Positions 7,275-37,669 of a stretch of 64,000 nt of DNA are shown here, one piece after another. The stretch spans positions 1 to 64,000 of the forward strand of contig CAIJLV010000138.1 of NCBI GenBank assembly GCA_903821635.1, in the 5' to 3' direction. The stretch's first letter is position 1. Every line of letters starts with the position of its first letter. Below the pieces are notes generated by a model. That model saw only the letters and a program-made list of their open reading frames with translations. It was not told the DNA's origin and ran no database searches. The DNA is from an uncultured Verrucomicrobiota bacterium (lineage in GTDB: Bacteria > Verrucomicrobiota > Verrucomicrobiia > Limisphaerales > UBA9464). The position numbers were made by a program, and so were the translations under genes.

Positions 7275-7434
7275 GCCCCAAACCGGGCGGCGCCCGAGTT
7301 TCAGCCGCCGGGTCCTGAGCCGCCGGTTTTCGGAGCGGCGGTATTCCTCGAATGCGGGTGGATTCGCCCGCGTCGCACTTCGGCTGCCGAGTTGTATCTT
7401 TAGGGAAAAACGTCAGCCTTCCGGAGGCCTCGCC

Positions 7435-13584: not shown

Positions 13585-13593
13585 GGGGCGGGC

Positions 13594-17435: not shown

Positions 17436-17638
17436 GAGGCGAGGATAGGCGGAGGCTGGCTGGACAGACCAGCCCGCTTGTAGGGACAAATCCTGCCCGT
17501 GCTTCCGCCTCTGGCCGGGATTGTCGTCCGAACGTCTTGAACGCTTCGGAGGCACAAAAATCTTTGCCGTAACACAGTTGAATCTTGTCGGGTTTTCCAC
17601 CGTCCGGCTAACGTCCGAATCTAGCATTTCAACTGCGT

Positions 17639-19433: not shown

Positions 19434-20222
19434 ATGCGAATTCACCTCTCCACAACCTCCGTCCCGCGGACCCGAAAATTGTCCCCCTGGGTGGCGTCGG
19501 GCCGCCGGGCCGCGGCGTTTACCTTGGTCGAGGTGATTCTCGCGATCGGCATTGCGACGGCGATGCTGATCGTGGCGCTGGTTTTTTATCGGCAGGCGGC
19601 GGATCTCCGCGGTCAGATTCTTCAAGAATCCGACCGCTGCGCCACGGTCCGGCTGGTGTTGGATCGAATGGCCGCCGATCTCCGGACTGCGTTGCCGGTG
19701 CCGGGTTCCAAGCACAGCTTTTTGGGTGACACGGGGTCGCTCAGTTTTACGAAGTCCGGTTTGGCCGGGGCAAACGCCGCGGGGGCAAGCGGCGGATTAA
19801 CCCGGGTTTCGTTCACGACGGTTCAGTCCAACGAAGGCACCAACTGGGTTGTCAGCGGTTTCGATCGGCGGGAAGAGTTATTGTCGGCTGTGCGCCCGGC
19901 GCAGGTTTCCGGGTTCGGCCTGACGAACTTGGCGGCGGGGGGCCCGGACTGGGACTCGACCAATCGGGTGACAGAACCACTGACCGACCTTATCCGGTTC
20001 GCCCATTTTCGCTATTGGGATGGCGCCGCTTGGCTCGAAGGCTGGACCAATGCCGCGCCACCGCCGGGGGTGGAGATCATTTTGGGCACCGATCCGCTAC
20101 CGCCGGAAGTGACGGCGGACGAATATCCGTTCGAGCAGTTCCGTCGGGTCATCTTCCTGCCGGCTGGAATCGCCCGGCGAACGCCTGAAGCGGTGGGCAG
20201 TGAACCGCTTTTAACACCGTGA
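19434..20222 (+). CDS. gspJ: GspJ-like minor pseudopilin
   Basis: This 262-residue protein has a prepilin leader (RAAAFTLVEVILAIGIATAM), a long N-terminal helix through LRGQILQESDRCATVRLVLD and a large C-terminal beta domain. Size and gene order match GspJ, a pseudopilus-tip component. Its stop overlaps the GTG start of gspK (GTGA at 20219). Confidence 0.82.
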   Translation: MRIHLSTTSVPRTRKLSPWVASGRRAAAFTLVEVILAIGIATAMLIVALVFYRQAADLRGQILQESDRCATVRLVLDRMAADLRTALPVPGSKHSFLGDTGSLSFTKSGLAGANAAGASGGLTRVSFTTVQSNEGTNWVVSGFDRREELLSAVRPAQVSGFGLTNLAAGGPDWDSTNRVTEPLTDLIRFAHFRYWDGAAWLEGWTNAAPPPGVEIILGTDPLPPEVTADEYPFEQFRRVIFLPAGIARRTPEAVGSEPLLTP

Positions 20223-21796
20223 CACTGCCCCGTCATTCATGGCCTGTAGCACCGGTTCCCGAGTTTCGGGACCGGGCTTGGAATCGAGCGCCCGTCCACT
20301 TGGGGCGTCGTCGGCGGGCGTTTGTGCTGCTGGCGGTGCTGGTGTTCATCATGTTGCTTTCGATGGTGACGGTGAGCCTGCTGTTTCGGTCGCGGGCTGA
20401 GGAAACGGCGGCCAGCGCGAGTGCGGGCGCCGAGCAGGCGTGGGCCGCGGCTCTCAGCGGGGTGCAGGAAGCCTTGCGCGTGGCGTCTTCGTCCGCCGCC
20501 GGCACCGACGAATGGTTGGATAATCCGGCGGCTTTCCGGGAACGACTGGTGTTTGAAGATGGCGCCGACCGCTGGTTGTTCACGGTTTATTCACCGGGCG
20601 ACAGTGAGTCGTTGACCGAGGTGCGCTCTGGGCTTTCGGATGAAGCGTCGCGGGTAAACCTGAATCATCCCGGCGGGGTTGACTTGGCCAAGATTCCGCG
20701 GATGACGGCGGCCATGGTCCAGTCCCTTCGGCAGTTTACCGGCGGGCAAACCAACGGAACAATGACTGCGGTCGAGGTCGCCCCGGCCCCGGCGGAGTCC
20801 GCGGAACCGCCGCCGAGCTTGGATTCGTTGGGGGAATTCTTGGAAACAGATCCGGACGAAATGGAGTTCAGTTCCTACTCCGAGGCTACGCCGCGTCGGC
20901 CGCTCGCTTCCCTGGAGGAATTGGCCGGCATCCCTGGGTTCAGCCGGACGCTTTTGTTCGGCGAAGATGCCAATTTCAACGGGCGTCTGGACCCGAATGA
21001 AAACGACGGCGACGAGCACCTCCCGCCCGACAACCGCGATGGCCGGCTGGATCACGGCATGGCGCAGTATTTTACGGTGACGGCCTATGATCCCGACCGC
21101 ACCCGGGCGGGCAAATTGCGGGTGGACTTAAACAGCGCCGTCGAGGTGCTGCCCCCGGCGGATTTGCCGGCGACGTTTACCAACTACGTGGCGGCGTTGC
21201 GGGCGGCGAAGATAAAGTTGGTCCACCCGGTGGACGTGCTCGAGGCCGTGGCAAAGACCAAGAACGAGCAGGGGCAGGACGTGGAAGTGGCGTCGGGCAT
21301 CACCAAGGAGCAACTCCCCCTGATCCTCGATCTCTTTACGACGGATGGCGAAGGCCGGCACGAAGGCTTGATCAATCTCAACACGGCCAACGCGATCGTG
21401 CTGGCGACGTTGCCCGGAGTGGATGCGGCCTTGGCCGAGACCATCGTGTCTACGCGCACCGCGGTGCGCCCGGAGCAGCGCCTGACCCCGGCCTGGTTGT
21501 TGACTGAGGGGGTGGTGGACGCGGAAAAATTCAAGCTCTTGGCACCGTTCCTCACCGCCCGCAGCTTTCAGTTCAGCTTTCACGTGATCGGTTACAGCCT
21601 GCCGGCTGGCCGGTATCGCGTGCTGGATGTGAAAATTGACGTCGCCGGAAGTGAACCGCGCGTCACCAGCCTCAGGGACATCACCCGCTTGGGGCTTCCC
21701 TTCAAACTCCAAGCCGAGACACTGGAAAAATCCGCCCCGGGGACCGCACAATCCCGGCCGGCAGTTTCCCCCATTCCAAAACTTATACATGGCTGA
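20219..21796 (+). CDS. gspK: GspK-like minor pseudopilin
   Basis: The 525-residue product has a hydrophobic segment (RAFVLLAVLVFIMLLSMVTV) without the usual Glu5, as in true GspK. A large body follows, with the helix-hairpin-helix-like motif LINLNTANAIVLATLPGVDA that characterises GspK. GspK caps the pseudopilus tip. The start is GTG at 20219, overlapping the gspJ stop. It is longer than the roughly 320-residue proteobacterial form, with extra acidic sequence around residues 180-270. Its 3' end overlaps the start of the next gene by eight bases. Confidence 0.88.
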   Translation: MTLPRHSWPVAPVPEFRDRAWNRAPVHLGRRRRAFVLLAVLVFIMLLSMVTVSLLFRSRAEETAASASAGAEQAWAAALSGVQEALRVASSSAAGTDEWLDNPAAFRERLVFEDGADRWLFTVYSPGDSESLTEVRSGLSDEASRVNLNHPGGVDLAKIPRMTAAMVQSLRQFTGGQTNGTMTAVEVAPAPAESAEPPPSLDSLGEFLETDPDEMEFSSYSEATPRRPLASLEELAGIPGFSRTLLFGEDANFNGRLDPNENDGDEHLPPDNRDGRLDHGMAQYFTVTAYDPDRTRAGKLRVDLNSAVEVLPPADLPATFTNYVAALRAAKIKLVHPVDVLEAVAKTKNEQGQDVEVASGITKEQLPLILDLFTTDGEGRHEGLINLNTANAIVLATLPGVDAALAETIVSTRTAVRPEQRLTPAWLLTEGVVDAEKFKLLAPFLTARSFQFSFHVIGYSLPAGRYRVLDVKIDVAGSEPRVTSLRDITRLGLPFKLQAETLEKSAPGTAQSRPAVSPIPKLIHG

Positions 21797-23432
21797 CCGC
21801 ATACGCAGATTAGCACCGATTCTGAGGCGGCTGGGGCTCCGCCGGGAGCGCCGGCCGAAGGCCCCTTCGCAAATCACCGCGCTCGACGTGGAGGGCACCA
21901 CCCTGCGCGTGGTGCAGACGGGTTCCCGGGGCAGCTTTGCCCGAGTGCTGAGCGCGCCACTGGAGTTCGCGCCGGACGCGGATCGGAACGATCCCGCGGT
22001 GCTGGGCGCTGCCCTGAACCGGGCGCTCGCGAAATTGCGGCTCAAGCCTGCGACGGTGGTGATGGGCCTGCCCCGAGCGCGGGTGGTGCTGCGGACGCTG
22101 ACTGTGCCGGTGATCGAAAAGACGGCTGAACTCGCTTCCTTGGTTCATTTCCAAGTGGGGAAGGACCTGCCGTTCCGCATGGACGAAGCGGTCATCGACT
22201 TCAAGGTCCGCCGCCAAATCATGCCCCCCCTTGAGCGCACCGAACCCCGGGAAGGTGCGGAAGCGGTCTCGGCGACGCCCAAACTGGAGGTGCTCGTGGC
22301 GGCCGTGAAGAGGGAGGTCGTGGAATTTTATCAGCGGGTGGCCGAAGCCGCCGGCTTCAAGCTGAGTGCGTTGGGGTTGCTCCCCTACGCCAACGCCCGC
22401 TGCGTCGAGGCGTGTCACGTGGCGGATGGCGACGACGCCTTTGCCCTTGTGTCCCTCCGGCCGGATGAGGTCGGCATCGACATCATCGCCCAGCAGTCGT
22501 TGCTGTTCAGCCGCGGGGCCGCGATCCGGGTCGGCGCCGAGACGCCGACGGCAGAGGGGTTTCTCCCCCTCGCGGTGATTGAAGTTGTGCGCAGCTTGCA
22601 CAGCTACAGCGGGCTGGAGGCAAATCCGGTCGTGGGGAAAGTCGTGGTCACCGGGGCGACCGGGCATGAGGCCGAGGTCGTGTCGGCGCTCGCCGGACGC
22701 CTGACGACGCCGTGCACGGTGCTGGATCCGGCGGCTGTGCTGGACCTGCCGGTGGATGCCCGCGAAGCGGCCGCCGGCGCCTTGGGCGCGCTGGGTTTGG
22801 CCTTGGGGCTGGGTGATGCCTCAGGGCTGCCGTTCGATTTCCTCAACCCGAAACAACCCGCGGTGCAGCGCGATCTGCGCAAGATTTGGATTCTTTCCAG
22901 CGTGGCGGCCGGCGCGGTGCTTTTGCTGGTCATCTTCGGTCTCCGTTCAATCCTCGTGAATCGCCGCACCGACGTCCTCAATGCGGCCAATGCCGAATTT
23001 GCCGAAGCCGACAAGAAGCGGCCGGTTTATCGCAAACTGATTCAACAAACTGGGGTCGTGGAGGACTGGATCAAAGGGGAACGAGATTGGCTGGAGCACT
23101 ACGCTTACCTGACCTCCGTGCTGCCGCCCAGTGAGGAGGTTTACCTCACTTCGATCGCGATCAGTGGTCAGAACACGATTCGCATGTCAGTGCAGGCCCG
23201 CAGCGGGGAAACCTTGGCCCGGTTGGAGAAGCAATTGGTCAGCGCCGGCTACGAGGTGAAGCCGTTGGCGATCACGCCGGGGGCGGACCGGTTCGGTTAT
23301 GAGTTCCGTTCCACGGTTGAACTGGGCGTGCCCGCCCGGTTGAAGATCGATTTGCACAAAGCCAAGCCTGCTCCCCGACCGATCGACGACATCTCGTTGA
23401 ACGCAGCCGCTTGGAAGCGAGGTGTGCAATGA
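21789..23432 (+). CDS. gspL: GspL-like protein with PilM and PilN parts
   Basis: This 547-residue protein joins an actin-like PilM/GspL cytoplasmic domain (from ITALDVEGTTLRVVQTG to about residue 355) to a transmembrane helix at about 367-392. A PilN-like periplasmic part follows, with a coiled region and a ferredoxin-like fold (EEVYLTSIAISGQNTIRMSV). This is the arrangement of GspL, which recruits GspE to the membrane. ATG 21789 overlaps the end of gspK, and its stop overlaps the start of the next gene (ATGA at 23429). Confidence 0.88.
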   Translation: MADRIRRLAPILRRLGLRRERRPKAPSQITALDVEGTTLRVVQTGSRGSFARVLSAPLEFAPDADRNDPAVLGAALNRALAKLRLKPATVVMGLPRARVVLRTLTVPVIEKTAELASLVHFQVGKDLPFRMDEAVIDFKVRRQIMPPLERTEPREGAEAVSATPKLEVLVAAVKREVVEFYQRVAEAAGFKLSALGLLPYANARCVEACHVADGDDAFALVSLRPDEVGIDIIAQQSLLFSRGAAIRVGAETPTAEGFLPLAVIEVVRSLHSYSGLEANPVVGKVVVTGATGHEAEVVSALAGRLTTPCTVLDPAAVLDLPVDAREAAAGALGALGLALGLGDASGLPFDFLNPKQPAVQRDLRKIWILSSVAAGAVLLLVIFGLRSILVNRRTDVLNAANAEFAEADKKRPVYRKLIQQTGVVEDWIKGERDWLEHYAYLTSVLPPSEEVYLTSIAISGQNTIRMSVQARSGETLARLEKQLVSAGYEVKPLAITPGADRFGYEFRSTVELGVPARLKIDLHKAKPAPRPIDDISLNAAAWKRGVQ

Positions 23433-24430
23433 ACCGCCGAGAAAAAATCCTCATTGGAGCGGTCGGCGGCCTCGCCGGGGTGTTTCTCCTCATTTACGGC
23501 CTGCGGGTGGTGTTTCTGGCACCGCTCCGCGATTTGGATAAACGCACCGCGCTGGTGCGGGAGAAGATCGCCAAGATCCAGACGGACCGCAGAAACTACT
23601 TCGCCGCCGAAGATCGTCTCAAAGCGATCACGAGGACGACCTTTGCGGACACCCCCGACCAAGCCAGCGCCCGGTCGGGAGAAATCCTGACTCAACAGAT
23701 CCTCGCTGCGGGGTTGGCGGAATCCGACTTCACGCGGCTGCCGGTGGGTCCCCGCAAGCTGCGGGGCGCCAGCGAAATTGGCTGGAATATCCAAGGTGAT
23801 GGTCCGCTGACCAACGTCGTAAATCTCCTGTTCACGCTGAACCATTCACCGTGGCTGCACCGCACGGAGAATCTGACGGTCACCCCGGGCGATGCGCCTG
23901 GCGTCGTGCGGGTGCGCTTCCGCTATTTGACGTTGGTGATCGAGCCGGCGCCCGAGGTGGAGCGGACGAATTTGGTGGCCACGCTCACGCTGGAATCACC
24001 CGAGCGGCACCTGCTCAACAACATCGTCTCGCGCGACCTGCTCCGGCCCTACATCAAACGCCCGCCGGCGCCCGCGCAGCCCGGTCAACCGGCGCCGCTC
24101 CCCTCGAAGCCGGGCGTGCCGCCTGGGTTGGAGACGTTCCGCGTGGTTTCGCTCTCGGAATGGAACGGTCAGCCGGAGATCCACATCCGTGATCTGGCCG
24201 CGCAGAAGACGGTGCGCTACCGACCGGGCGATGAACTGGCGGGCGGCACGATCGTCATGGTGGACTACCGCCCGATGCCCTTGCCGGGGAACTCACTTTT
24301 GCAGTCCTACAGCCGCCTGATCCTGAAACTCGGCCAAGAGTATTGGGCGGTCGAACGTGGCCGGACCCTCGCTGAAAAACATAAACTGGCTGATGCCGAA
24401 CTTCCGCCCCAACTGGCTCAAAAGCCGTAA
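23429..24430 (+). CDS. gspM: GspM/PilO-like inner-membrane protein
   Basis: This 333-residue bitopic protein has a short cytoplasmic N-terminus, one helix at about residues 8-31, a charged coiled region (LDKRTALVREKIAKIQTDRR) and a periplasmic domain of GspM/PilO type. The residues from about 200 on are rich in Pro and may include a PilP/GspC-like strand region (TFRVVSLSEWNGQPEIHIRD). That could take over the secretin contact normally made by GspC, but this is an inference. The secretin gene begins seven bases after its stop. Confidence 0.8.
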   Translation: MNRREKILIGAVGGLAGVFLLIYGLRVVFLAPLRDLDKRTALVREKIAKIQTDRRNYFAAEDRLKAITRTTFADTPDQASARSGEILTQQILAAGLAESDFTRLPVGPRKLRGASEIGWNIQGDGPLTNVVNLLFTLNHSPWLHRTENLTVTPGDAPGVVRVRFRYLTLVIEPAPEVERTNLVATLTLESPERHLLNNIVSRDLLRPYIKRPPAPAQPGQPAPLPSKPGVPPGLETFRVVSLSEWNGQPEIHIRDLAAQKTVRYRPGDELAGGTIVMVDYRPMPLPGNSLLQSYSRLILKLGQEYWAVERGRTLAEKHKLADAELPPQLAQKP

Positions 24431-24437
24431 TTCCGTG

Positions 24438-27400
24438 ATGTCTTCGCTCGCTCCCTTTTCCGCTATGAAATCGCTCCGTTTGGTTTTTCTCGGCACCACC
24501 CTGCTGGCCGGTTCGGGCGCGGTGGCCCAACCCGCCGCCCCGCCCGATGTCGTCGTCAGTGCGCCGGCTACCGTCGCGTCTGCCCGCAACATCCGCTTCC
24601 AGTTCGACGGCATTCCGTATGCCGACGTGGTGGAGCGGTTTGCGCAGATGGCCGGCAAGCCGCTGCTGTCGGACACCAATATCGTCGGTTCGCTCACCTA
24701 CGACGATCCGAATGCCTACAGCTACGTCGAGGCGCTCGACACGCTGAACCTCATGCTTGCCATGAAGGGCGTGATGCTGGTTGAGGATGGCAACAACCTG
24801 CGGTTGGTGCCGTTCAAGCAACTGCCGTCCATGCCGCTCCGCATCATGCGCGGCACGGAGAATGTGGGAGATGTGCGCCCCAACGAAGTCGTCACCGTCG
24901 TGCTCGACGTGAAGAACCTCGACGCCAAGGAAGTCGCGGATTCCCTCCTGCCGATGCTCTCTAATGCTGGGTCGGTCGCGACCCTAGGTCGGGGACGGGG
25001 ACTCGTGGTCACGGACCGGCTCGCGAATATCCAGCGGGTGCGCACGTTGATGACGACCATCGGCAACGAGCAGGCGGCCGACCGGCAGATGAAGACTTAC
25101 ACGCTGCTCAATGCGTCGGGCGCGATCGTATCGGATTTGCTCAATCGCACCTTCGGAGTCGCCACCGCGCCGAAGCGGACCTCCTTCAATCCGAACACCA
25201 AAGCGATGGACGTCCTGCCCCCGGACCCCAACGACTACATCACCTCGGTGTATGATGACGCGTCCCGCACGCTGGTGTTGTTTGGCCCCAATGAACGGCT
25301 TGGCCTCGCCGAAGAGCTCATCAACAAGTTCGAGCAGAAGGACGGCGCGGGCGGAGATGTCCGGATTTACCAACCGCAGACGATCAAAGCCGAGGAACTC
25401 GCCAGCATGATCCGGCAGGCGATTCCCGGCGTCGCGGGTCCGAACGAAACCGGCAGTGCCGCAGCTACCAAGGCGCGGGTCATCGCCGACAAGGAACAGA
25501 ACCGACTGATCGTGGCGGCGCCGCTGCCGGGCCAACTTGACCAGATCGAGCAACTCATTACGCGGGTGGACAAGGGAATCGTCGGCGCCGTGGGTGTCGG
25601 CGGCGAAAATGCCCTCGTGCCGACCCGCGGGGAGTCGATTCAGCTCACCAAGATTTTCCGGCCGCGTGCGACCGAGGCGACCAACGTCACCGCGATCCTC
25701 AAGCAGGCCCTGACCCGGAAGAACAAATCCGGCCAGGTCGTGACCTCGGCCAGCGTCAGCTACGATGGCGGCAGTCAGAGTGTGGTGGTGACCGGTTCGC
25801 CGGCGGACTTGCAGACCGCGAGCGACATTGTGTCGCAGTTGGAAACTGGTTCGAGCCAACCCACCCCGTTGCAAACGCGTTTTATTGAGGTCGGTTCGCC
25901 CGAGGAAGCCCGCCGCATCCAGCCACTCGTGGAGCAACTCTACCGGAACCAGAGCGCGGACGGGTCCACCTCGACCGTCGCGCACGCCAAAATCCTCGCC
26001 GACACGGAGTCCGGCCGCCTGATTGTCACCGCCAGCCAGGAGCATCTCCAACGCATTGAGAATCTGGTGACGCAACTGCGGGCTGACAAACCGCAGACCC
26101 AGACGCGGCGTTTGAAGGTCATTTCGCTCAAGAACAGCCGCACCGAAGCGGCGTTGCCCAATATCCAGAACCTCGTGAGCGAACGCATGGCGGACCGGCG
26201 TTTCGCGACCGTGCCCAAGCCTTCGCTGGTGGCCGATGTTCCCAACAACCGGCTGCTGGTCACGGCAACTGACGATCAATTGAAGGAGATCGAGGCCGTG
26301 GTGGGCATCGTGGACATCGCCCCGGTGCAGACGGAGCGCGAATTGAGTGTCATCCCGCTGCAAGCCAAGCAGGCCGCCGAAATCATTCCGCTGGTGACGC
26401 AACTCGTCGGCCAGTTGGCCGCCCCTGGCCAGTTGGCGCCGACGCTCATGGCGGACCCGACGGGCAAACAGATCATCGTGCTCGCCGTTGCCAAGGATCA
26501 GGAACGGATCCGCACGTTGGTGAAGCAGTTTGACGTCACCCCGGCGACTGCGGCTCCCCGGCAGTTCCGAGGCATCGAATTGTTCAGTCGCACCGCCGTG
26601 GAATTCACGCCGCTGGTGCAGCAGCTTTATCAGGAACAAGTCCGTGGCCAACCCGAGCCCGCGGGCGGCGCCGCCACCCTAATTGCCGAGGCGAAGAACA
26701 ACCGCATCATGGTCAGCGGCGCGGACAAGGAAATCGCCCGGGTCGAGGGTATCATCCGGCAACTGGATCCGGTGGAGAAGAAGGCGGCGAAGGAAGAGAC
26801 GCGCGTCATCCGCTTGAAGACGGCTTCCGCCACCGAATTGGTCGGGCTGGTGGAGAAGAGTCTCAACGCCCAGTCCCAACAGGTGAAGGTGTTGTTGGAT
26901 GCGCGCAGCAACAGTTTGGTCATCACCGGCGACCGGGCTGCCGTCGAAGCGGCGTGGCAAATGATCCAGCAACTCGACACGCGCCCCGAAGCCGGGCCGC
27001 GCGAGTTGAAGGTGATCGAACTCAAGTCCGCGGATGCAAATACCCTGGCGCCGACGGTGACCACGCTGTTCACGGAACTGCTCCGCGATCAACGGGGGGC
27101 GGATTACGTGACCGGCACCAAAATTGTCCCTGACCCGGTGGCCAACCGCCTGATCATCACCGGCGGCGCCGCGGAGATCGAACAGGTCGCCAGCATCGTG
27201 AACCGGCTCGACAACAGTCCCCAACAAGCGCCTGGGGCCCGTGTTTTCAAGTTGAACCAAGCGGAGGCTGGCATGATGGCTCCGATTGTTTCGAGCGCGA
27301 TGATGCGCTACGACCCGCGGGGTCTGCCGATCAAGCGGGTCACCGTCACGGCCGACGAAAAATCCAATTCCCTGATCGTCTCCGGCACGCGGACCGATTT

Positions 27401-30400
27401 GCAGGATGCGGAATCCGTCATCGAAAAACTCGACGGTGGCGGCGAGGCGGTTACCCGCGAAAAGCAGCTCCGCATTTTTGAGGTGAAGGGTGATCCCGAC
27501 GCCCTAGCGACGCTCTTGCAGAAAGTGTTCTCCGCGCAAAATCCGGGTCGGAATCTGAGCAGTGTGCTGAGCATCACGCCCGAGCCGGCGAGCAAGCGCC
27601 TGCTGGTGCTTGCTTCGCCCACGGTGCTTGCTCAGGTCGAGACGATGGTCACCGCGCTGGACGCCAAACCCGAGCAGGGCGTGCGTGAGCTGCACTCGGT
27701 GGAGTTGAAGAATGCGACCGCTGCCGACCTCATGACGAAGGTCAACCAGATCTACGCCGAGCAGTCGCAGGGCAAAACCCTCAAGCCGGCGACGATCTAT
27801 CCCGACGCGTCTGGCACCCGCTTGCTCGTTCAAGGCACAGACGAACAAGCCGCGAGCATTCAGCAGATTGTTAGCACGCTGGAAAGCCAGGTCCGGCCCG
27901 CCCGGGAAACCAAGGTGTTCGACCTCGGCAAGCTCGCCGAAGCGCAACGCCTCATGCCGTTGGTGCAGCAGCTTTACCGCGATCAACTTGCGAGCACCCC
28001 GCAACTGGGTTCGCCCGACGCCCAGATCGTCAGCGACGGCAAAACCGGACGCGTGTTCGTGAGTGCGCGCGCCGACCAGTTAAAAACGGTGGAAGACATC
28101 ATCGCACGCCTCCAGTTGAACGCCGGGCCCGGGCAGGCATCCCGCGAAACCAAGACCTTCGAAGTGGGCACCGCGGCGGACGTTCAGCGCCTGCACCCGC
28201 TCGTTCAGCAGCTCTATCAGGACCAGTGGAAGGACAAGCAAGACACCGATCCGGCCGACGCCCAGATTATGGCTGATCCCAAGGCGGGCCGCCTCATCAT
28301 TACGGGGAAACCCGAGCATTTGAAACAGATTGAGGCCATCCTCCAACAGCTCGGCACCGGCAAGGCGCGCACGGAAAATCGGCAGACGCGCATCATTGAT
28401 TTGACGACCGCCAGCGCGGTGGAACTCGCGACGACGGTGCGCACGCTTTACTTGGAGGAAGCCAAGGGGCGCTTAGGGGGATCCACTCCCGACACGCTCA
28501 TCACGCCCGACACCGGCGGCAATCGGCTCATCCTCGTGGGTGACACCAACGAGCTGGCCGCGGTCGAAGAAGTGGTCCGCAAACTCGATAAGGCTAGCGC
28601 CCAAAGCGCCTCAGCCCGCGTGTTCAAGATCAAGTCCGCCGAACCTGAAAAGGTCGCCGAAATCCTGACCACCTCTCTCGTGCGTTACGACGCCTACGGC
28701 CGGCCTCAAAAACGGGCCACGGTGTCGGTGGACGCCAAGACTCGCACGCTGATCGTGACCGGCGATCCGAAGGAATTGCAGGGCGTTTCCCTGATCATCG
28801 AACAGTTGGACCAATCGCTCGGCGAGGTGCCGGAACGTCGGACCAAAGTCATCACGCTGAAACAGGGCCGGGCGGCGACCCTTTCGCCCAAGGTGCGCCA
28901 GCTTTACGCGGACCGCATCAAGAGCCAGCCGGAGCTGTCCACGTCGGATATTCTCATTTTGGAAGAGGGCGAGAGCAACCAACTCATCATCGCCGGCAAC
29001 GACGCCCAGTTGAAGGTCGTGGACCAGATTGTGGACGAACTTCAATCCGCGCAGTTGACCCGCGTCGGCCGCGAAACTCGGCTGTTGTCCGTGGGCAGCG
29101 CCGATGAATTGGCCCGGCTTCAGCCGTTGGTCCAGCAACTCTACACCGACCGCTTCAAGGGGCGTGATGCGAGCGATCCGGCCGACGCGCAAATCATCCC
29201 CGATGCCAAAAACGCCCGCTTCATCGTGACCGCGCGCACGAACCACATTGAGGAAATTGAAGCGATTCTGACCCAGTTGCGGAGTAACGAAACCGCGTTT
29301 CAAGCGCGCGATACCCGGGTGTTTGACCTGACCACGGCCAACGCCGTGGAGCTCTCCACCACCGTGCGGACGCTCTATACCGAACAGGCCAAGAATCGGC
29401 CCGGTGCGCCGGCGGCCGACACGCTCATCACGCCCGACGTGAGCGGCAACCGCATCATCGTCACCGGTGGCACGAACGAACTGGCCGTGGTCGAAGACCT
29501 CATCCGCAAGCTCGACAAGGTCGGCAGCCAGAGCGCCTCGGCCCGCGTCTTCAAGATCAAGTCGGCGGAGCCCGAAAAGGTGGCGGAAATCCTTTCGACG
29601 TCGCTGGTGCGTTACGACGCCTACGGTCGGGCCCAGAAGCGCGTCACGGTTTCGGTCGATGCGAAGACTCGGACGCTGATTGTCACGGGGGATCCCAAGG
29701 AACTGGCTGGCGTTTCCCTGATCATTGAGCAGTTGGACCAGTCACTCGGGGAAGTTCCGGAGCGAAAGACCAAGGTGATCAATCTCAAGCAGGGGAAGGC
29801 CTTGGTGCTCTCGCCCAAGGTGCGCCAACTTTACGCGGATCGCATCAAGAGTCAGCCGGAGTTGACCACGTCGGACATCCTCATCTTGGAAGAGGCGGAG
29901 AGTAATCAACTCATCATCGCCGGCAACGACGCGCAATTGAAGGTCGTGGGGCAGATTGTGGATGAATTGCAGTCCGCGCAGTTGACCCGCGCCGCCCGCG
30001 AAACCCGGCTGTTGGAAGTGGGCAGCGCCGACGAACTCAGCCGCCTTCAGCCGTTGGTCCAGCAACTCTACACCGACCGTTTCAAAGGCCGGGACGCGAG
30101 CGATCCGGCCGACGCGCAGATTATTCCCGATGCCAAGAACGCCCGCTTCATCGTGACCGCGCGGACCAATCACCTCGCGGAGATTGAGGAGATCCTCGCC
30201 CAGTTGCGCAGCAACGACACCGCGTTCCAGCCACGGGACACCCGAGTGTTTGACCTGACCTCGGCCAACGCCGTGGAGCTCTCCACCACCGTGCGGACGC
30301 TCTATACCGAACAGGCCAAAAATCGGCCCGGTGCGCCGGCGGCCGACACGCTCATCACGCCTGACGTGAGCGGCAACCGCATCATCGTCACCGGCGGCAC

Positions 30401-33400
30401 GAATGAACTGGCCGTGGTCGAAGACCTCATTCGCAAGCTCGACAAGGTCGGGGCCCAGAGCTCGACCGCCCGGGTGTTCAAGGTGAAGTCCGCGGACCCG
30501 GACAAGGTGGCGGAAATCCTTGGCACCGCGCTGGTCCGTTACGATGCCTACGGTCGGCCACAGAAACGGGTCAGCGTGGTGACCGACCCGAAGACCCGCA
30601 CCATCATCGCAACTGGTGATCCGAAGGAGCTTCAGGCGGCGGCGGTCATTATTGAGCAGTTGGATTCGTCGCTCGGAGCGGAAGCCGGCCGGTCGATGCG
30701 GGTGTTGCCGCTGAAAGATCGGCGCGCCTCCGAGATTAGCGCCAAGATTCGGCAGGTGTATCAGGATCAAGCCCGCAATAACCCTGAGTTTGGCACGACG
30801 GAGCCGCTGATTTTGGATGATGCCTTGAGCAATCAACTGATCGTGGCGGGCAACGAAAAGCAGCTCAATGCCCTCGCGGAAATCACTACCCTATTGCAGG
30901 CCGGCGGCACGACCGGTGGCCGGCAGTCAAAGGTGTTCCCGTTGCAGCGCTCTTCCGCCACTACGCTGGCGGGGATGATCGCGCAGCTTTACGCGCGCCG
31001 CGGTCAGACCGGCGATCCATCGGAGTGGGTGCTCGCCAGCACGGGCGGCAATGAACGGACCCTGGTGGTGGAAGCTCGTCCGGCGGTGCTTGAGCGGATC
31101 GAGCAATTGGTCAAGGAGGTGGACGGTGCCGGGCCGGACGGGGAAAACGTGATCCAAACGGTGCACCTCGAAAAGGGGCGCGCCGAAGACCTCGCCGAGG
31201 CGGTCAACCGGGTGCTGAGCGCCCGCGGCGACGCCGCGACCACCCGGCGCGTCAGCATTACGCCGGTGGCGGGTGCCAACAGCCTGTTGCTCAACGGGCC
31301 GACCAACGCTGTCCAGCAGGTCATCGACGTGATCCGTGGCCTCGACAAGGAAGGCGCCGGCAGCAGTGACATCGAAGTGCGCATCTACAAACTCGAAAAT
31401 GGCAGCGCGCGGGAAGTTTCCAGTGTGCTCCAGCAGTTGCTCCAATCCGTGTCCCGTAATTTCCGGCGCAGCCCGACCGGGCCTGGGGATAACGAGGGGG
31501 CTGGCGGCCGGCGGACGCCGCAGACCAGCGTCTCCGTGGATGAGCGTTCCAACAGCCTCATCATCTCGGCGACCGAGACGCATTTCAAAGTGGTGGAGAA
31601 GATCCTGCCGACGCTCGACAAAGCCCCGGAGCGCTCCGACCGCGACGTGCAGTTTGTCTGGTTGCGCAAGGCCAAGGCCTACGATGTCTCCTCCAAACTC
31701 GACACCCTGTTCGAGGATCGGCCCCGCGCCGACCGGCCGGTGATCGAGCCTGACCTCACGGCGAATTCGCTGACGATCATCGCGAAGCGCGGCGACATTC
31801 CCCAGATTCAGGACCTGATTTCCCGCCTCGACGAACAGGGCAAGGAATCCGCCGTGCAAGTTCGGTTGCGCCCGCTTGACCGTGTGGCCGCCGACCAAAT
31901 GGCTAAGATGCTGGTCAGCATCTACCCTCAGGTTTCCGGCACACCGCTGCGCTTGGCCGACAAGGTTTCGCCGCCGGCCGAGAAGCAGGATGCCGAGGAA
32001 CTCAAGGCCCCCGAAGTGGTCATTGCCGTGGATAAGGCGGCCAACGCGCTGATACTTTCCGGTCCGGCGCAGGAGTTGGACGGCGTGGATCGGTTGGTCA
32101 CCGAGCTGTCGCTGAACTTCTACGGCAACGAATCCGAATTTCGCCTGTTTGCGATCAAGGATGCCGATCCGGTCATTGTCGCCCGCACCCTCACCGAATT
32201 GCTGCGCCAGGACCCGGTTCAAGTGCAGCAACCCGGTCAGCCACCCCAAGCCGTTGCGCCCAAACAACGCATCACCGTCGTCGCGGAACCGCGCACGCGC
32301 AGCGTCATCGTGCGCGCGCGGCCGACGGACTTCGCGTTGATGGAGTCGTTGATCAAGCAACTCGACAACGCGGGGCAGATTGCCCAGTTGGATTTTCGCG
32401 TCGTGCCCCTAACCAATGCACCGCCGGAGAAGTTGCTGCCCCTCGTTCAGCAGATGGTCACCCAGCTCAGCGCCAGCCGCCCGGGCGATCCCGTCACCGT
32501 GGCGGTCGATTCGCGTGGCCGGGGATTGGTAGTGATCGCCCGGGACACGATGGCGACCCAAGTCGAAAAGCTGATCCAGTCACTCGATACACCAGCCGCC
32601 CACGTCGAGGTCGAGGTTCAGATCGTGCCGCTGAAGCAGGCGAATGCCGTCCAGCTAGCGGCCGTATTGCGGGGCATGCTCCGCCCCGGCACCGCCGGCG
32701 AGTCGACGTTGGAATCACGCGAACTGCAGGAGCAGGTGCGCCGGCTCAAGGTGCGCAACCCGCAGGGCGAGACCGTGCTGCTGGACCTTACCAAACCGAT
32801 CAAAATCGCCACCGACCCCGCGGCCGGTGCCGGCGGCGGCAACCGCCTGCTGCTCACCTCGACGCCGGACAACCTCGCGGCGTTGACCGCGATCGTGGGG
32901 CTGATGGATTCGGTGCCGGTGCTCGACGGGGTAAAGCTTCGTTTCGTGCAGTTGGAGCACGCCGACGCGGCGGCGGTGGCGCAGACGCTGACCTCGGTTT
33001 TCACCCAGGGCCGCACCTTAGCGGTGGGCCCCGCTGGTCCCGGCGCGCAGCCGGCAGAGCAGGGGAAGGCGCTGGTGCAACCGCTGAACGTGGCGGTGGA
33101 TAACCGGAGCAATACGCTGATCTTGAGCGGTCAACCCGACAGTCTGGATCTGGCCCAAAAGCTGATCGCCGACTTGGATCGGGAATTGTTCCGCTACGTG
33201 ACGGACGTGCGAATGTTCCGGCTCAAGCACGCTTCGGCCACTCGCCTAGTCCCGTTGTTACAATCGGTCTTCACCGAGGGAGCGGCCGTGCCGGGCACCG
33301 AAGGTCTTTCCACCCAGATCACCCGCCTGCGCACCTTGAAGGATGGCGAACGCGGCAAAGTGAACCAGACGCCGAAGAATCGTCCCGCGCTGACCATTCA

Positions 33401-36400
33401 GGCGGACGACCAGTCCAACATCCTCATCGTCGCCGCCCGCAGTGACAATTTGCCGCTGATCGCCGACGTGATCGAGCAGCTCGACATCCCGGCGGCTTCC
33501 GGGTTGGAGACGGTCCGGGTTTATCCCCTCGAACACGCCGAGCCGGCGGCCGTGCAAAAGGTCTTGAGCGACCTCTTCACGGGGCCGCGCGCGACGTCGC
33601 TGCGCAACGAAGATCGCCCGGTGATCACCGTGGATGCGCGGACCGGTTCCCTCATTGTGGCGGGCAACAGCAAGGCGTTCGGCGTGATCGAGGGGTTGCT
33701 GAAGAGCTTGGATCAGAAGCTGCCATTTGATTTGCGTGACATCGCCTTCATTCCCCTCGAACACGCCGATGCGAATGTGGTGGCCCCCACGCTCCAGAAG
33801 TTGATGGATGCCCGGGTCACCCAGCGTGCGACGCTGAATCAGGGCCAAGCGGAAGCCTTGAAAGTCATCATCATGGCCGACCAGCGCAGTAACGCACTCA
33901 TCGTCGGCGGGGCGCGCGAAGGCTTCGAGTTGGTCCAAAACCTCGCGAAACAGCTTGATCAGGCGGCCCCCGCCTTGAGCGGACGGGTCCGCTTGATTCC
34001 GATGCAGTATGCCGATGCCCGCGTTGTTGCGAGCACGCTGAGCACGCTCTTTGAGCAGCGTTATGCCGCCCTCCGCACCGCCGATGTGCAGCGCAACAAG
34101 CCGATCATTCTGCCCGACACCCGCAGCAATTCGCTGTTGGTCGCCGCCAGCCAAGAGGATAACCGAACGCTCGACGACTTGTTGAAGCGGCTTGATGCCA
34201 AGCAGGACAACCCCGCCCTCACGCTCACGGTCCTGCCGCTGAAATTCAACGACTCGGCCCGCGTGGCGACGATGATCGAAAGCATTTTTTCCGCCCGGCA
34301 ACGCGCGCAGACGCTGCCCGGCTCCACCCCGCTGCCGAGCGAGCAGATCAAGCTGGAACCCGACCCGCTCAATAACGCGCTGATCGTTTCCGCCAGTAAG
34401 GAGAACCTGGAGCTCGTGCAAGGGCTGCTCCTCAAGTTGGATGCGGAACCCGTCATTCCGGGCGGCGTCTTCGAGACCTTCACCTTGGAATTTGCCGACG
34501 CCACGCGCATCTCCACTATCCTCAAGTCGCTCGTCGATCAGGGGCTTTACCGTCCAGGCCGGCCAGCCAACGCCTCGGGCCGGGGTGGCAATGCGGGCCG
34601 CGACACGCTGTCGATCAGTGTCGATCCGCGGAGCAATACGCTGATCGTCAGCGCCAGTCCGGAAAACCTCACGATCGTGCGTGAAGTTGTGAAACGGCTC
34701 GACGCCAAGGACCTCGCCGCCAATGCCGACGTAAAGCTCTATGCTCTCAAAAACGCTCGGGCGAGTTCCCTTGCGACGACTTTGCAGCAGTTTTTTCAGG
34801 CCAAGCGCACCGCCGACAGCATCGCGGTCAACGCCAACCAACGCTCCATTCCGGCAACCGTCATCGCCGACGATCGCATCAACTCGATCCTCGTCACCGG
34901 CGGCAAGGAGGCGTTCGACCTAGTGGATCGCATGTTGCCCCAACTGGATGGTGACAGTGTGTTTTCGCGGCTGAACTTCCGGGTGTTTCCGTTGAAGAAG
35001 GCGACGGCGCTGAAATTGCAGGCCACGCTCCAACCCATCTTCGCCAATCGCCCGCCCAAGGTCCGGGGCGAGCCGGTAGACCCGATCACCATCATCGCCG
35101 ACCAATGGGTGAATGCGTTGCTGGTTGGCGCCACGGTGGATGATTTGAGCACGGTGGCCTCCTTGATTGAGAAGCTCGACAGCGACCCGACGGAAACCGG
35201 CATCTCGATTCATGTGTTCCCGCTCGCCAAGGCCGACGCCCGCCGAGTGGCCACCACGGTGCAGGGGTTGTTCCGGGAGAATCTGCCCAACCAGATTCTG
35301 CCCATCACCGTTTCGGCGGATGAGCGGATCAACGCCATCGTCGTGTCCTGCGGTGAGACGGACGCCCAACGCATCGGTCAACTCGTCCAGAAACTCGACA
35401 CCGATCAGGTGGCGAAGGTCAGCGAAATTAAGGTGTTCCCGCTGCAGTTTGCCCGGGCCGAAGCCCTGGCTTCGATCCTCAATACGGCGTTGAACACCAA
35501 GCCGGTGGCGCTCAATGAGCAGAGCCCCAACGCGCAGTCGGTCCTGCAATTCATCACCCGCACCGAGCTCGGTCAGGAACTCGTCACGGCGGCGCTCAAG
35601 GAGTCGGTGCTCATCACCCCGGATCCGCGGATGAACTCGCTGATCGTCTCCGGCCCGGTGGATTACATGGGTCTATTAGAGCAGATCGTGACCCGGCTCG
35701 ACGCCAGCTCGCCGCAGGTGGCCAAGATCAAGGTCTTCTCCCTCCAGAACGCCGACGCTCGGCAGATGGCCGATGTCTTGACCCAGATGTTTCGCATGAC
35801 CCCGACCGGCGGTCCCGCCACTGGCCAACGTTCCGTGCAATACACGCTCGTGCGCAACCTCGCCGCTGACGCCGGCCCGGGCGAGGAGTCGATGGCTTCC
35901 GCCACGCTGGGCACAGCCGAGCAGAACGCGCTGACGGTCACCGTGGACCCACGGACCAACAGTTTGCTCGTCGGCGGCACCGATCATTATGTCACCCTTG
36001 TCTCCCAATTGATCGACACCCTCGATTCGAGCACGACGCACGAGCGAAATTCGGAAGTCATCCGCCTCAAAAATTCCCAAGCCTCGGAAGTCGCCCTCGC
36101 TATCCGCTCGTTCCTCGATCAGGAACGCCTAAAGCTGATCCAAGCGCTCGGAGTGGATGCGGCGGCGGCGGCTCAGCGCATGATGGACCAGGAAGTTGCC
36201 GTCGTTGCCGAGCAAACCAGCAATACCCTGCTGCTCTCAGCCAATCACCGTTATTTCGAGCAGGTGCGCCGGCTGATTGATGAACTCGACCAAGCCCAAC
36301 CACAGGTCCTCATCCAAGTGCTGCTCGCTGAGGTGACCCTCGACAACGCCACCGACCTCGGCGTCGAGTGGAGTCACAATGGCAGCAAGGGCGACGTGGC

Positions 36401-37190
36401 CTACGGCATTGGTTCTGACTTTGGCGTGGCGGATTCGCTGAAGAACTTCGGCGGTTTCTCCAGCGCGGTCACGGGCAGTGACTTCAGTTTCCTCCTCCGT
36501 GCACTCAAGCAGCAGGGCCGACTGGAAGTGCTCAGCCGCCCACAGATCGTCACCTCCGACAACAAGCCGGCGACCATCAACATCGGTCAGCGCGTTCCCC
36601 TCGTGGACCAGAGCCGGCTGGATGCGCAGAACAATCTGACCACGCAATTTCGCTACGAGGACGTGGGAGTGAACCTGACCGTGACGCCCAAAATCAGTCC
36701 GGACGGTTTCGTGAAGATGGAAATCGGCACGACCAACAGTTCGATCAGCACCTCCACGGTTGAGGTCAACAAAGGGTCCTCGGTGCCAATCATCAATCAA
36801 CGCAAGGCCAACACCACCGTCAGCGCCCAGAGCGGCCAGACGATCATCATCGGTGGACTCATCGCCACCACCGACGACAAGCGGGTGAAGAAAATGCCGG
36901 TGCTGGGCGAGATCCCCTACCTCGGAGCCTTGTTTCGCACCAGTTCCACCAAGCGCGATCGCAAGGAGCTCCTGATCATGCTCACTCCCGTGGTCATGGA
37001 GAATCATCAGCGCAAGGTGAAGCTCAGCGATCCTGACGAGGTGCTGCGCCAAGAATTGGATTCGTCCAACTTCAAACCCCTGATGAAGCAGGGTGAAATG
37101 CAGCGTAAACTGCTCGAACCGCTCTACCAGACCAACCGCCCCACGTGGCGGGATCAAGTGCTGCCGAACAAGAAGGAAAATTCGCTGTGA
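24438..37190 (+). CDS. gspD: Giant secretin (GspD/PilQ-like) with about 47 N1/NolW-like modules
   Basis: This outer-membrane secretin has 4,250 residues, about six times the normal length. A signal peptide (MKSLRLVFLGTTLLAGSGAV, preceded by nine residues if ATG 24438 is used; ATG 24465 is the alternative) is followed by an N0/STN domain (about residues 52-135). I then count about 47 tandem modules of 65-105 residues. Each has the N1/NolW pattern: an (F/L)xLxxAxAxxLxxxLxxLF helix, a variable loop, a D-x-x-S-N-x-L-I-V strand, and a helix ending in QLD. The C-terminal secretin domain is complete: VLIQVLLAEVTLD, VLSRPQIVTSDNKPATINIG, QSGQTIIIGGLI and LFRTSSTKRDRKELLIMLTP, about residues 3955-4190. 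The frame is open throughout. The rough monomer mass is about 460 kDa (110 Da per residue). Confidence 0.97.
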   Translation: MSSLAPFSAMKSLRLVFLGTTLLAGSGAVAQPAAPPDVVVSAPATVASARNIRFQFDGIPYADVVERFAQMAGKPLLSDTNIVGSLTYDDPNAYSYVEALDTLNLMLAMKGVMLVEDGNNLRLVPFKQLPSMPLRIMRGTENVGDVRPNEVVTVVLDVKNLDAKEVADSLLPMLSNAGSVATLGRGRGLVVTDRLANIQRVRTLMTTIGNEQAADRQMKTYTLLNASGAIVSDLLNRTFGVATAPKRTSFNPNTKAMDVLPPDPNDYITSVYDDASRTLVLFGPNERLGLAEELINKFEQKDGAGGDVRIYQPQTIKAEELASMIRQAIPGVAGPNETGSAAATKARVIADKEQNRLIVAAPLPGQLDQIEQLITRVDKGIVGAVGVGGENALVPTRGESIQLTKIFRPRATEATNVTAILKQALTRKNKSGQVVTSASVSYDGGSQSVVVTGSPADLQTASDIVSQLETGSSQPTPLQTRFIEVGSPEEARRIQPLVEQLYRNQSADGSTSTVAHAKILADTESGRLIVTASQEHLQRIENLVTQLRADKPQTQTRRLKVISLKNSRTEAALPNIQNLVSERMADRRFATVPKPSLVADVPNNRLLVTATDDQLKEIEAVVGIVDIAPVQTERELSVIPLQAKQAAEIIPLVTQLVGQLAAPGQLAPTLMADPTGKQIIVLAVAKDQERIRTLVKQFDVTPATAAPRQFRGIELFSRTAVEFTPLVQQLYQEQVRGQPEPAGGAATLIAEAKNNRIMVSGADKEIARVEGIIRQLDPVEKKAAKEETRVIRLKTASATELVGLVEKSLNAQSQQVKVLLDARSNSLVITGDRAAVEAAWQMIQQLDTRPEAGPRELKVIELKSADANTLAPTVTTLFTELLRDQRGADYVTGTKIVPDPVANRLIITGGAAEIEQVASIVNRLDNSPQQAPGARVFKLNQAEAGMMAPIVSSAMMRYDPRGLPIKRVTVTADEKSNSLIVSGTRTDLQDAESVIEKLDGGGEAVTREKQLRIFEVKGDPDALATLLQKVFSAQNPGRNLSSVLSITPEPASKRLLVLASPTVLAQVETMVTALDAKPEQGVRELHSVELKNATAADLMTKVNQIYAEQSQGKTLKPATIYPDASGTRLLVQGTDEQAASIQQIVSTLESQVRPARETKVFDLGKLAEAQRLMPLVQQLYRDQLASTPQLGSPDAQIVSDGKTGRVFVSARADQLKTVEDIIARLQLNAGPGQASRETKTFEVGTAADVQRLHPLVQQLYQDQWKDKQDTDPADAQIMADPKAGRLIITGKPEHLKQIEAILQQLGTGKARTENRQTRIIDLTTASAVELATTVRTLYLEEAKGRLGGSTPDTLITPDTGGNRLILVGDTNELAAVEEVVRKLDKASAQSASARVFKIKSAEPEKVAEILTTSLVRYDAYGRPQKRATVSVDAKTRTLIVTGDPKELQGVSLIIEQLDQSLGEVPERRTKVITLKQGRAATLSPKVRQLYADRIKSQPELSTSDILILEEGESNQLIIAGNDAQLKVVDQIVDELQSAQLTRVGRETRLLSVGSADELARLQPLVQQLYTDRFKGRDASDPADAQIIPDAKNARFIVTARTNHIEEIEAILTQLRSNETAFQARDTRVFDLTTANAVELSTTVRTLYTEQAKNRPGAPAADTLITPDVSGNRIIVTGGTNELAVVEDLIRKLDKVGSQSASARVFKIKSAEPEKVAEILSTSLVRYDAYGRAQKRVTVSVDAKTRTLIVTGDPKELAGVSLIIEQLDQSLGEVPERKTKVINLKQGKALVLSPKVRQLYADRIKSQPELTTSDILILEEAESNQLIIAGNDAQLKVVGQIVDELQSAQLTRAARETRLLEVGSADELSRLQPLVQQLYTDRFKGRDASDPADAQIIPDAKNARFIVTARTNHLAEIEEILAQLRSNDTAFQPRDTRVFDLTSANAVELSTTVRTLYTEQAKNRPGAPAADTLITPDVSGNRIIVTGGTNELAVVEDLIRKLDKVGAQSSTARVFKVKSADPDKVAEILGTALVRYDAYGRPQKRVSVVTDPKTRTIIATGDPKELQAAAVIIEQLDSSLGAEAGRSMRVLPLKDRRASEISAKIRQVYQDQARNNPEFGTTEPLILDDALSNQLIVAGNEKQLNALAEITTLLQAGGTTGGRQSKVFPLQRSSATTLAGMIAQLYARRGQTGDPSEWVLASTGGNERTLVVEARPAVLERIEQLVKEVDGAGPDGENVIQTVHLEKGRAEDLAEAVNRVLSARGDAATTRRVSITPVAGANSLLLNGPTNAVQQVIDVIRGLDKEGAGSSDIEVRIYKLENGSAREVSSVLQQLLQSVSRNFRRSPTGPGDNEGAGGRRTPQTSVSVDERSNSLIISATETHFKVVEKILPTLDKAPERSDRDVQFVWLRKAKAYDVSSKLDTLFEDRPRADRPVIEPDLTANSLTIIAKRGDIPQIQDLISRLDEQGKESAVQVRLRPLDRVAADQMAKMLVSIYPQVSGTPLRLADKVSPPAEKQDAEELKAPEVVIAVDKAANALILSGPAQELDGVDRLVTELSLNFYGNESEFRLFAIKDADPVIVARTLTELLRQDPVQVQQPGQPPQAVAPKQRITVVAEPRTRSVIVRARPTDFALMESLIKQLDNAGQIAQLDFRVVPLTNAPPEKLLPLVQQMVTQLSASRPGDPVTVAVDSRGRGLVVIARDTMATQVEKLIQSLDTPAAHVEVEVQIVPLKQANAVQLAAVLRGMLRPGTAGESTLESRELQEQVRRLKVRNPQGETVLLDLTKPIKIATDPAAGAGGGNRLLLTSTPDNLAALTAIVGLMDSVPVLDGVKLRFVQLEHADAAAVAQTLTSVFTQGRTLAVGPAGPGAQPAEQGKALVQPLNVAVDNRSNTLILSGQPDSLDLAQKLIADLDRELFRYVTDVRMFRLKHASATRLVPLLQSVFTEGAAVPGTEGLSTQITRLRTLKDGERGKVNQTPKNRPALTIQADDQSNILIVAARSDNLPLIADVIEQLDIPAASGLETVRVYPLEHAEPAAVQKVLSDLFTGPRATSLRNEDRPVITVDARTGSLIVAGNSKAFGVIEGLLKSLDQKLPFDLRDIAFIPLEHADANVVAPTLQKLMDARVTQRATLNQGQAEALKVIIMADQRSNALIVGGAREGFELVQNLAKQLDQAAPALSGRVRLIPMQYADARVVASTLSTLFEQRYAALRTADVQRNKPIILPDTRSNSLLVAASQEDNRTLDDLLKRLDAKQDNPALTLTVLPLKFNDSARVATMIESIFSARQRAQTLPGSTPLPSEQIKLEPDPLNNALIVSASKENLELVQGLLLKLDAEPVIPGGVFETFTLEFADATRISTILKSLVDQGLYRPGRPANASGRGGNAGRDTLSISVDPRSNTLIVSASPENLTIVREVVKRLDAKDLAANADVKLYALKNARASSLATTLQQFFQAKRTADSIAVNANQRSIPATVIADDRINSILVTGGKEAFDLVDRMLPQLDGDSVFSRLNFRVFPLKKATALKLQATLQPIFANRPPKVRGEPVDPITIIADQWVNALLVGATVDDLSTVASLIEKLDSDPTETGISIHVFPLAKADARRVATTVQGLFRENLPNQILPITVSADERINAIVVSCGETDAQRIGQLVQKLDTDQVAKVSEIKVFPLQFARAEALASILNTALNTKPVALNEQSPNAQSVLQFITRTELGQELVTAALKESVLITPDPRMNSLIVSGPVDYMGLLEQIVTRLDASSPQVAKIKVFSLQNADARQMADVLTQMFRMTPTGGPATGQRSVQYTLVRNLAADAGPGEESMASATLGTAEQNALTVTVDPRTNSLLVGGTDHYVTLVSQLIDTLDSSTTHERNSEVIRLKNSQASEVALAIRSFLDQERLKLIQALGVDAAAAAQRMMDQEVAVVAEQTSNTLLLSANHRYFEQVRRLIDELDQAQPQVLIQVLLAEVTLDNATDLGVEWSHNGSKGDVAYGIGSDFGVADSLKNFGGFSSAVTGSDFSFLLRALKQQGRLEVLSRPQIVTSDNKPATINIGQRVPLVDQSRLDAQNNLTTQFRYEDVGVNLTVTPKISPDGFVKMEIGTTNSSISTSTVEVNKGSSVPIINQRKANTTVSAQSGQTIIIGGLIATTDDKRVKKMPVLGEIPYLGALFRTSSTKRDRKELLIMLTPVVMENHQRKVKLSDPDEVLRQELDSSNFKPLMKQGEMQRKLLEPLYQTNRPTWRDQVLPNKKENSL
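24888..36300 (+). repeat. Array of about 47 tandem secretin N1/NolW-like modules
   Basis: These are the modules counted by eye in the translated secretin, each closing with an LD- or LQ-type turn. Most modules are diverged. Loops are short (modules of 65-75 residues) in the first two thirds and longer (80-105 residues) in several of the last modules. Usual GspD proteins carry N1, N2 and N3, that is three of this fold. My count could be off by one or two. Confidence 0.88.
28386..30900 (+). repeat. 927-bp higher-order tandem repeat (four modules per unit) within the secretin gene
   Basis: The same positions recur at an exact 927-bp distance. RVFDLTTANAVELSTTVRTL-type modules begin at 28386, 29313 and 30240. 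RVFKIKSAEPEKVAEIL-type modules begin at 28617, 29544 and 30471. The first two units are near-identical over their full length (309 codons). The third is close over its first two modules and then diverges. This shows recent growth by unequal recombination, in frame. Confidence 0.93.
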
Positions 37191-37669
37191 AGTTTACTCC
37201 TTGGGTGCTTGGTGCGCTGGGGTGGGTGGCGGTTTTGACGACTGGCTGTGTGACTGGCGGGGGCGGTGGAACCGTCTCTGAAATCCATCTCTTCGGGGTC
37301 CCGGTGGCACTCAATTTGGACAGTATTCCGGGCCCCGACGGGATCGGTGTTCGGATCTATGCGAGCGCGCCTGGTGTCGCCCGGGGCGTGGTCATTCGGT
37401 CGGGCGTGCTCCAAGTCCTATTGTTTGAGGGCGCCCTGGACGCCGGCGAATTGAAAGCCACCGCTGCGTTGAAGGTCTGGTCCTTGGGCGCCGCGGCCTT
37501 GAAACCGCTCGCGGCGGAAACCTCTCTGGGAGTTGGCTACCAGCTCGCCCTGCGCTGGGAACAAGCCATCCCGCGGACCGCCGTCGTCACCGTGGTGGCC
37601 CGTTATCAGCGCCCCGGCGGGGAGGAATTCTGGTCTACCCCCAACACGGTCTCGGTCGCTGTAAAGTAA
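37187..37669 (+). CDS. Small lipoprotein, candidate pilotin of the giant secretin
   Basis: The 160-residue product starts at GTG 37187, overlapping the secretin stop codon. A lipoprotein signal ends in LTTGC (Cys about residue 21). The mature domain is a short, mostly beta protein (GIGVRIYASAPGVARGVVIR, then RTAVVTVVARYQ). I recognise no family. Translational coupling to the secretin gene and the lipobox suggest an outer-membrane lipoprotein helping secretin insertion (a pilotin role). This rests on context only; known pilotins are mostly helical or TPR proteins. Confidence 0.75.
   Translation: MKFTPWVLGALGWVAVLTTGCVTGGGGGTVSEIHLFGVPVALNLDSIPGPDGIGVRIYASAPGVARGVVIRSGVLQVLLFEGALDAGELKATAALKVWSLGAAALKPLAAETSLGVGYQLALRWEQAIPRTAVVTVVARYQRPGGEEFWSTPNTVSVAVK

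Follow-up and report, generated by a model that had tools for sequence, protein, structure and literature searches.

A giant GspD secretin with 47 N1-type modules in a Verrucomicrobiota type II secretion locus and the long periplasmic tube it may form

Introduction

The N domains of the secretins GspD and PilQ build stacked rings. To our knowledge, characterised secretins carry only a handful of such rings, and six have already been termed exceptional. GspD of the type II secretion system (T2SS), represented by PulD, XcpQ, ExeD, and EpsD, is a protein of about 600–750 aa with a signal peptide, an N0 domain, three N1-type modules (N1–N3), and a pore, and one survey put the mean length of the secretin family at 555 ± 151 aa (PMC4827864). 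PilQ of Thermus thermophilus, a 757-aa component of the type IV pilus and DNA-uptake machine, has extra N-domain rings; with six rings, it measures 35 nm in length and is said to cross a wide periplasm (PMC5745081, PMC4463427). In PVC bacteria, the periplasm can be much enlarged and convoluted (PMC5394234, PMC3660258), and a ribosome-free rim compartment, the paryphoplasm, is described in the subdivision-3 strain Ellin514 (PMC2647929). No description of giant or many-domain secretins, or of such secretins in Verrucomicrobiota, was found in our literature search, the scope of which left out most subscription papers.

Here we analysed a stretch of 64,000 nucleotides (the window) from an uncultured Verrucomicrobiota bacterium of the GTDB order Limisphaerales (assembly GCA_903821635.1, contig CAIJLV010000138.1, positions 1 to 64,000), in which an earlier note, made from the sequence alone, had reported a secretin of 4,250 residues.

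Results

Domain architecture of the giant secretin

The forward strand of the window contains a reading frame that is open from 24357 to 37190, with a probable ATG start codon at 24438 that sits eight bases past the last base of the stop codon of the upstream gene. The resulting gene (gspD, 24438..37190, +), identified by open reading frame and domain searches, encodes a giant T2SS secretin of 4,250 aa and about 460 kDa, and the calculated mass of a 15-mer is about 6.9 MDa. The protein begins with a predicted Sec signal peptide comprising the first 31 residues (MKSLRLVFLGTTLLAGSGAVA-Q; 24438..24530, +), which was read by eye without a predictor. The signal peptide is followed by an N0 domain at about residues 50–130 (24585..24827, +) and a first N1 module at about residues 140–210 (24855..25067, +). 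Both were identified by the match of the XcpQ N0-N1 structure (4ec5) to residues 63–203. The array of 46 further N1-type modules (Secretin_N, KH-like) occupies residues 218–3951 (25089..36290, +), and the secretin pore domain (PF00263), supported by Pfam and PDB matches, lies at residues 4022–4187 (36501..36998, +).

Pfam searches returned 39 Secretin_N stretches with 1,213 bits in all, and a single Secretin domain (residues 4022–4187, E 3e-50, 170.5 bits). To count the modules, we used a module HMM of 67 positions, seeded with nine window modules and iterated over 21 giant proteins, which detected 46 modules between residues 218 and 3951 (weakest i-E 1e-8). Each module is 60–100 aa long, and the modules are connected by linkers of 8–12 aa, with the sole exception of a 25-aa linker near the N-terminus. 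Together with the N1 at about residues 140–207 beside N0, these amount to 47 N1-type modules and one N0; in some orthologues, this extra first module was also picked up by the module HMM. The figure of about 47 modules in the earlier note thus proved exact, and its claim of one N0 and a single ordinary pore held. Its proviso that a domain search might find only a few true N1 modules was not met, with nearly all of them detected. Pfam matches of the array to eukaryotic KH, HMA, and fatty-acid-synthase models were rejected as mere fold resemblance, with the secretin models dominating; the eukaryotic KH matches arise because the KH fold is common to both.

Predicted structure of the modules

AlphaFold single-chain models were generated for a ten-module block (residues 706–1462) and for the last modules together with the pore. 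In both models, each module is predicted to adopt a beta-alpha-beta-beta-alpha (EHEEH) fold. For the middle block, the 38 best matches in the PDB (E ≤ 0.001) were secretins without exception, and two consecutive modules superposed on N1–N2 of GspD (3ezj) at 4.1 Å across 122 residues. Structure prediction supported the secretin N-domain fold; the packing of neighbouring modules was left undetermined (pTM of 0.23 and 0.34, both low); because of this low packing confidence, the models do not demonstrate ring stacking.

Assignment of the giant protein to GspD

Analysis of the sequence identified the giant protein as the GspD secretin of a T2SS in one Verrucomicrobiota order. It scored 1,344.7 bits against the GspD equivalog model TIGR02517, with a cut-off of 351.35; this score is summed over 26 stretches and is thus inflated by the repeats, and the best stretch covers positions 126–596 of 600. 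The protein scored 1,345 bits as GspD versus 425 bits as PilQ, its best PDB matches were GspD structures, and a profile built from mid-array modules matched such structures in their N domains (5wq7, E 2e-20). It shares with PulD, XcpQ, ExeD, and EpsD the signal peptide, the order of N0, N1-type modules, and pore, the place in a gsp operon, and the best sequence and structure matches, but has 47 N1-type modules where they have three. At 4,250 aa, it is six to seven times as long as a normal secretin, with about 47 ring-forming modules against the usual two to five, and for these reasons it is a variant and not an ordinary GspD. The interpretation in the earlier note was supported as to the giant secretin; what it suggested might be a new class of secretion channel is better put, in view of the TIGR02517 score and the canonical gsp operon, as an extreme GspD variant restricted to one order.

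Two other systems invite comparison. Thermus PilQ likewise has extra N domains, whereas the giant protein has about eight times as many modules and is encoded in a T2SS-type locus. Akkermansia, which belongs to the same phylum, has secretin-type and PilM-like pilus proteins (Amuc_1098 and Amuc_1101) whose models gave only weak matches, far short of the curated thresholds (56.9 of 750 bits and 17.8 of 650 bits), and the Amuc_1098 model is just 805 positions long. The genome of the window also carries six further secretin genes with open frames of 453–1,347 aa (contigs C145, C234, C93, C125, C28, and C195).

The T2SS locus

The gene order in the window is E-F-[insert]-G-H-I-J-K-L-M-D, followed by a lipoprotein gene. 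Profile matches identified the ATPase GspE (7225..9105, +), which has an MshEN domain and an uncertain start codon, and the platform protein GspF (9779..10981, +), while the major pseudopilin GspG (17639..18157, +) scored above the cut-off of TIGR01710. The minor pseudopilins rest on weaker matches than GspE, GspF, and GspG: GspH (18190..18960, +) has a weaker profile match, and the GspI-like (18957..19430, +), GspJ-like (19434..20222, +), and GspK-like (20219..21796, +) proteins match below the cut-offs. The GspL position is occupied by a PilM/GspL-type platform protein (21786..23432, +) identified by profile matches, and the GspM position by a protein (23411..24430, +) that is conserved in relatives and without match in Pfam, NCBIfam, or the PDB. 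GspC, whose HR domain binds N0, was not found by single-sequence or profile search, so the link between the secretin and the platform remains a guess; the C-terminal domain of the GspM-position protein is an unproven candidate for the N0 partner (the GspC/PilP role). Directly after gspD lies the gene of a lipoprotein (37187..37669, +; lipobox LTTGC) that is conserved in relatives, matches no known family, and may act as a pilotin. Its lipobox was recognisable in 41 of 54 distinct homologues under a strict rule and by eye in most of the others. The components other than the secretin are of ordinary size, as previously noted.

GspE, GspF, GspG, and the minor pseudopilins H–K are present in one locus with the order kept in relatives, and the order G-H-I-J-K-L-M-D-lipoprotein was found again in dozens of loci. 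On the minus strand of the window, the region 11125–17627, encoding a 727-aa protein, a WD40-repeat Ser/Thr kinase, and an ECF sigma factor, parts gspE-gspF from gspG-D. In relatives that show both parts of the operon, E, F, and G are near neighbours, and this region hence looks like a lineage-specific insertion. Downstream, the operon region is bounded by the gene of an Ada-type methylated-DNA repair protein (38458–39567, minus strand).

Distribution and co-inheritance

Single-frame orthologues of about 2,900–5,155 aa, encoded in the same operon, were found in independent MAGs across the order, so that the search for long homologues in other Verrucomicrobiota yielded dozens of MAGs with this architecture. 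Most of the 50 genomes of the same family gave 35–52 Secretin_N matches, many within single frames of 3,400–4,517 aa. Order-wide, 91 of 293 genomes had at least 20 Secretin_N matches, with frames reaching 5,155 aa in our tally. Almost all of the 67 loci obtained in a scan of genome contigs belong to Verrucomicrobiota MAGs, many of them from lakes, ponds, and groundwater, with record titles that include Limisphaerales and Pedosphaera. None of the 386 sampled genomes outside the order had a giant array or more than 12 Secretin_N matches in a phylum-wide count, and when the pore region was searched against the proteins of the phylum, only ordinary secretins were returned. No cultured organism with the gene was found. 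In the tally of 293 genomes, the giant secretin and GspL occurred together in 86, the giant alone in 5, GspL alone in 8 (mostly fragmented genomes), and neither in 194. This near-constant co-occurrence shows that the system comes and goes as a unit.

Several individual records deserve mention. The biggest open frame (L131, G088:C60) encodes 5,155 aa; 40 modules were counted over 3,664 aa of it, and the whole protein likely holds well over 50. MAG records titled Akkermansia muciniphila, Klebsiella pneumoniae, Proteobacteria, and Phycisphaerales (L068, L084, L085, L090, L091, L093, L099, L104, and L126) carry the verrucomicrobial gene or operon, and their organism names are probably wrong. Among them, L126 (PMYM01000241.1) has the most divergent complete operon (34% identity), with its secretin split into two overlapping frames of 3,435 and 884 aa, perhaps by a frameshift. 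Partial giant arrays of 17 and 14 modules occur in L109 (labelled Planctomycetales) and L130 (labelled Pirellulales), reflecting either mis-binning or a wider spread.

Conservation, selection, and growth of the array

Within the family, six full-length proteins from other genomes are 65–83% identical to the window protein from end to end. Modules 27–46 are 65–84% identical to their counterparts in ten relatives and the pore 59–93%, indicating at the sequence level that the array is conserved about as strongly as the pore; N0, with 72–93% identity where fully aligned, ranks with the best-conserved parts of the protein. The giant gene has a dN/dS of 0.11–0.15 overall and a pN/pS of at most 0.55 per comparable module, and every module that could be compared is under purifying selection.

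Among 30 intact copies, the array comprises 42 modules in 20, 45–46 in five, 39 in three, 43 in one, and 37 in one (N1 not counted), and 28–41 modules in more distant families. Four window modules have no counterpart in the sister genome. They map to an expansion hotspot (28489..31269, +) of three tandem units of 927 nt (309 aa, four modules) that start at 28489, 29416, and 30343; at this site the window has one unit more than its sister genome and other relatives, whose arrays are four modules shorter there. Within modules 14–25 of the window and its near relatives, modules resemble each other most at a lag of four; elsewhere the peak is at a lag of two or three. In a tree of the last seven modules and the pore, where 42 modules are the common state, the 46-module state requires at least four changes on well-supported branches. 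The tree and the lag pattern indicate that the module count is mostly stable but shifts by duplication or loss of blocks, and that arrays grow via tandem duplication of blocks of two to four modules.

Discussion

Our preferred reading, to which we give somewhat better than even credence, is that the giant protein is a T2SS secretin forming a tube of about 48 rings across a deep periplasm. The sequence and the number of domains were observed, as were the operon, the conservation, the co-inheritance, the selection, and the mode of expansion; the stacking of the rings, the length of the tube, the width of the compartment, and the cargo are inferred. About fifteen copies of GspD would make the usual outer-membrane pore, from which a stack of about 48 rings (N0 plus 47 N1-type) would extend through the periplasm to the inner-membrane platform. 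With an assumed 2.5–3 nm per ring, the tube is estimated at roughly 120–140 nm; the ring spacing of Thermus PilQ is wider than this assumption. The six-ring Thermus protein provides a precedent for secretin length that scales with the breadth of the periplasm. Such a tube would guide an equally long pseudopilus plus cargo over a very deep or invaginated periplasm, as in other PVC bacteria, and the module number would set its reach and evolve by the tandem gain or loss of two- to four-module blocks. A tube joining platform to pore would account for the conservation of N0, for the strong selection, and for a module count that stays stable. We regard as evenly balanced the fuller proposal of a conserved nanotube (~15-fold, ~48 rings, at least 120 nm, ~7 MDa) that serves the T2SS across a deep periplasm and whose block-tuned module count acts as a ruler of envelope depth.

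For an array of this length, the earlier note had listed modules that fold back, extend outside the cell, or are cleaved, or an exceptional compartment. The last is the most natural of these options, because an enlarged periplasm or a paryphoplasm occurs in other PVC bacteria. The periplasm cannot be 100 nm deep everywhere, since the six other secretins of the genome (open frames of at most 1,347 aa) presumably function too. Further points against the tube are the absence of any structure or microscopy, the undetermined packing in the AlphaFold models, and the lack of a GspC identified by sequence; both the 100-nm length and the exceptional compartment are inferences.

That the array is an artefact of assembly or frameshift, such as a collapsed or chimeric repeat, can be virtually discounted. 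The window genome is a fragmented draft of 237 contigs, but orthologous arrays with the same architecture occur in dozens of independently assembled MAGs, the dN/dS is typical of a real gene, and the window's tandem units are at least 21% divergent in DNA from the reference copy and are therefore not a recent assembly error. On these grounds we reject the artefact, which the earlier note had named as a possible refutation; the module count could still be off by one four-module unit, while the architecture is secure. It also appears very doubtful that cleavage after export frees the array from the pore as a separate periplasmic or surface fibre, a reading supported only by the general argument that 100 nm is too long for an ordinary periplasm. 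The linkers are nearly uniform without an odd spacer as a cleavage mark, the 25-aa linker lies near the N-terminus, and the strong conservation of N0 points to continued docking at the platform.

A tether or scaffold without a continuous channel is unlikely but is the rival that we take most seriously. Assembly would then be confined to N0 and the rings near the pore, and the rest would be flexible or folded-back chains of beads, maybe fifteen of them, by which the pore is anchored either to the platform or to the cell wall. Repeat arrays often serve as spacers, and such a role would fit the lack of a set module packing in the single-chain models and the presence of ordinary secretins in the same genome. 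Pure spacers, however, usually diverge quickly, yet purifying selection keeps every comparable module, one to one between genera, about as strongly as it does the pore; moreover, the linkers are short and mostly uniform, and a Pfam search found no peptidoglycan-binding domain in the protein. Rather improbable, in our view, is a long conduit for a pilus instead of secreted proteins, in which the GspG–K filament would be a true pilus for adhesion, uptake, or electron transfer. The protein in the GspL position is PilM-like, the many-ring secretin of Thermus serves pili (PMC5745081), and Planctomycetes have pili-like fibres joined to envelope-spanning structures (PMC5394234). Against this, the filament genes make up a T2SS complement, including a GspK-like protein and a GspG that passes its equivalog cut-off; the secretin matches GspD far better than PilQ, and no retraction ATPase turned up in those window genes that were tested.

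Many families in one bacterial order hold 28 to more than 46 modules under strong selection, and the module count is steady at 42 across much divergence. Either these bacteria possess the longest secretion conduit inferred to date, or N domains also serve another purpose. The proposed tube brings a testable prediction to the debate over a "compartmentalised" cell plan in PVC bacteria, namely that the module count tracks the local distance between the inner and outer membranes. If the nanotube is real, the array would be a genetically encoded ruler for the depth of the Verrucomicrobiota envelope.
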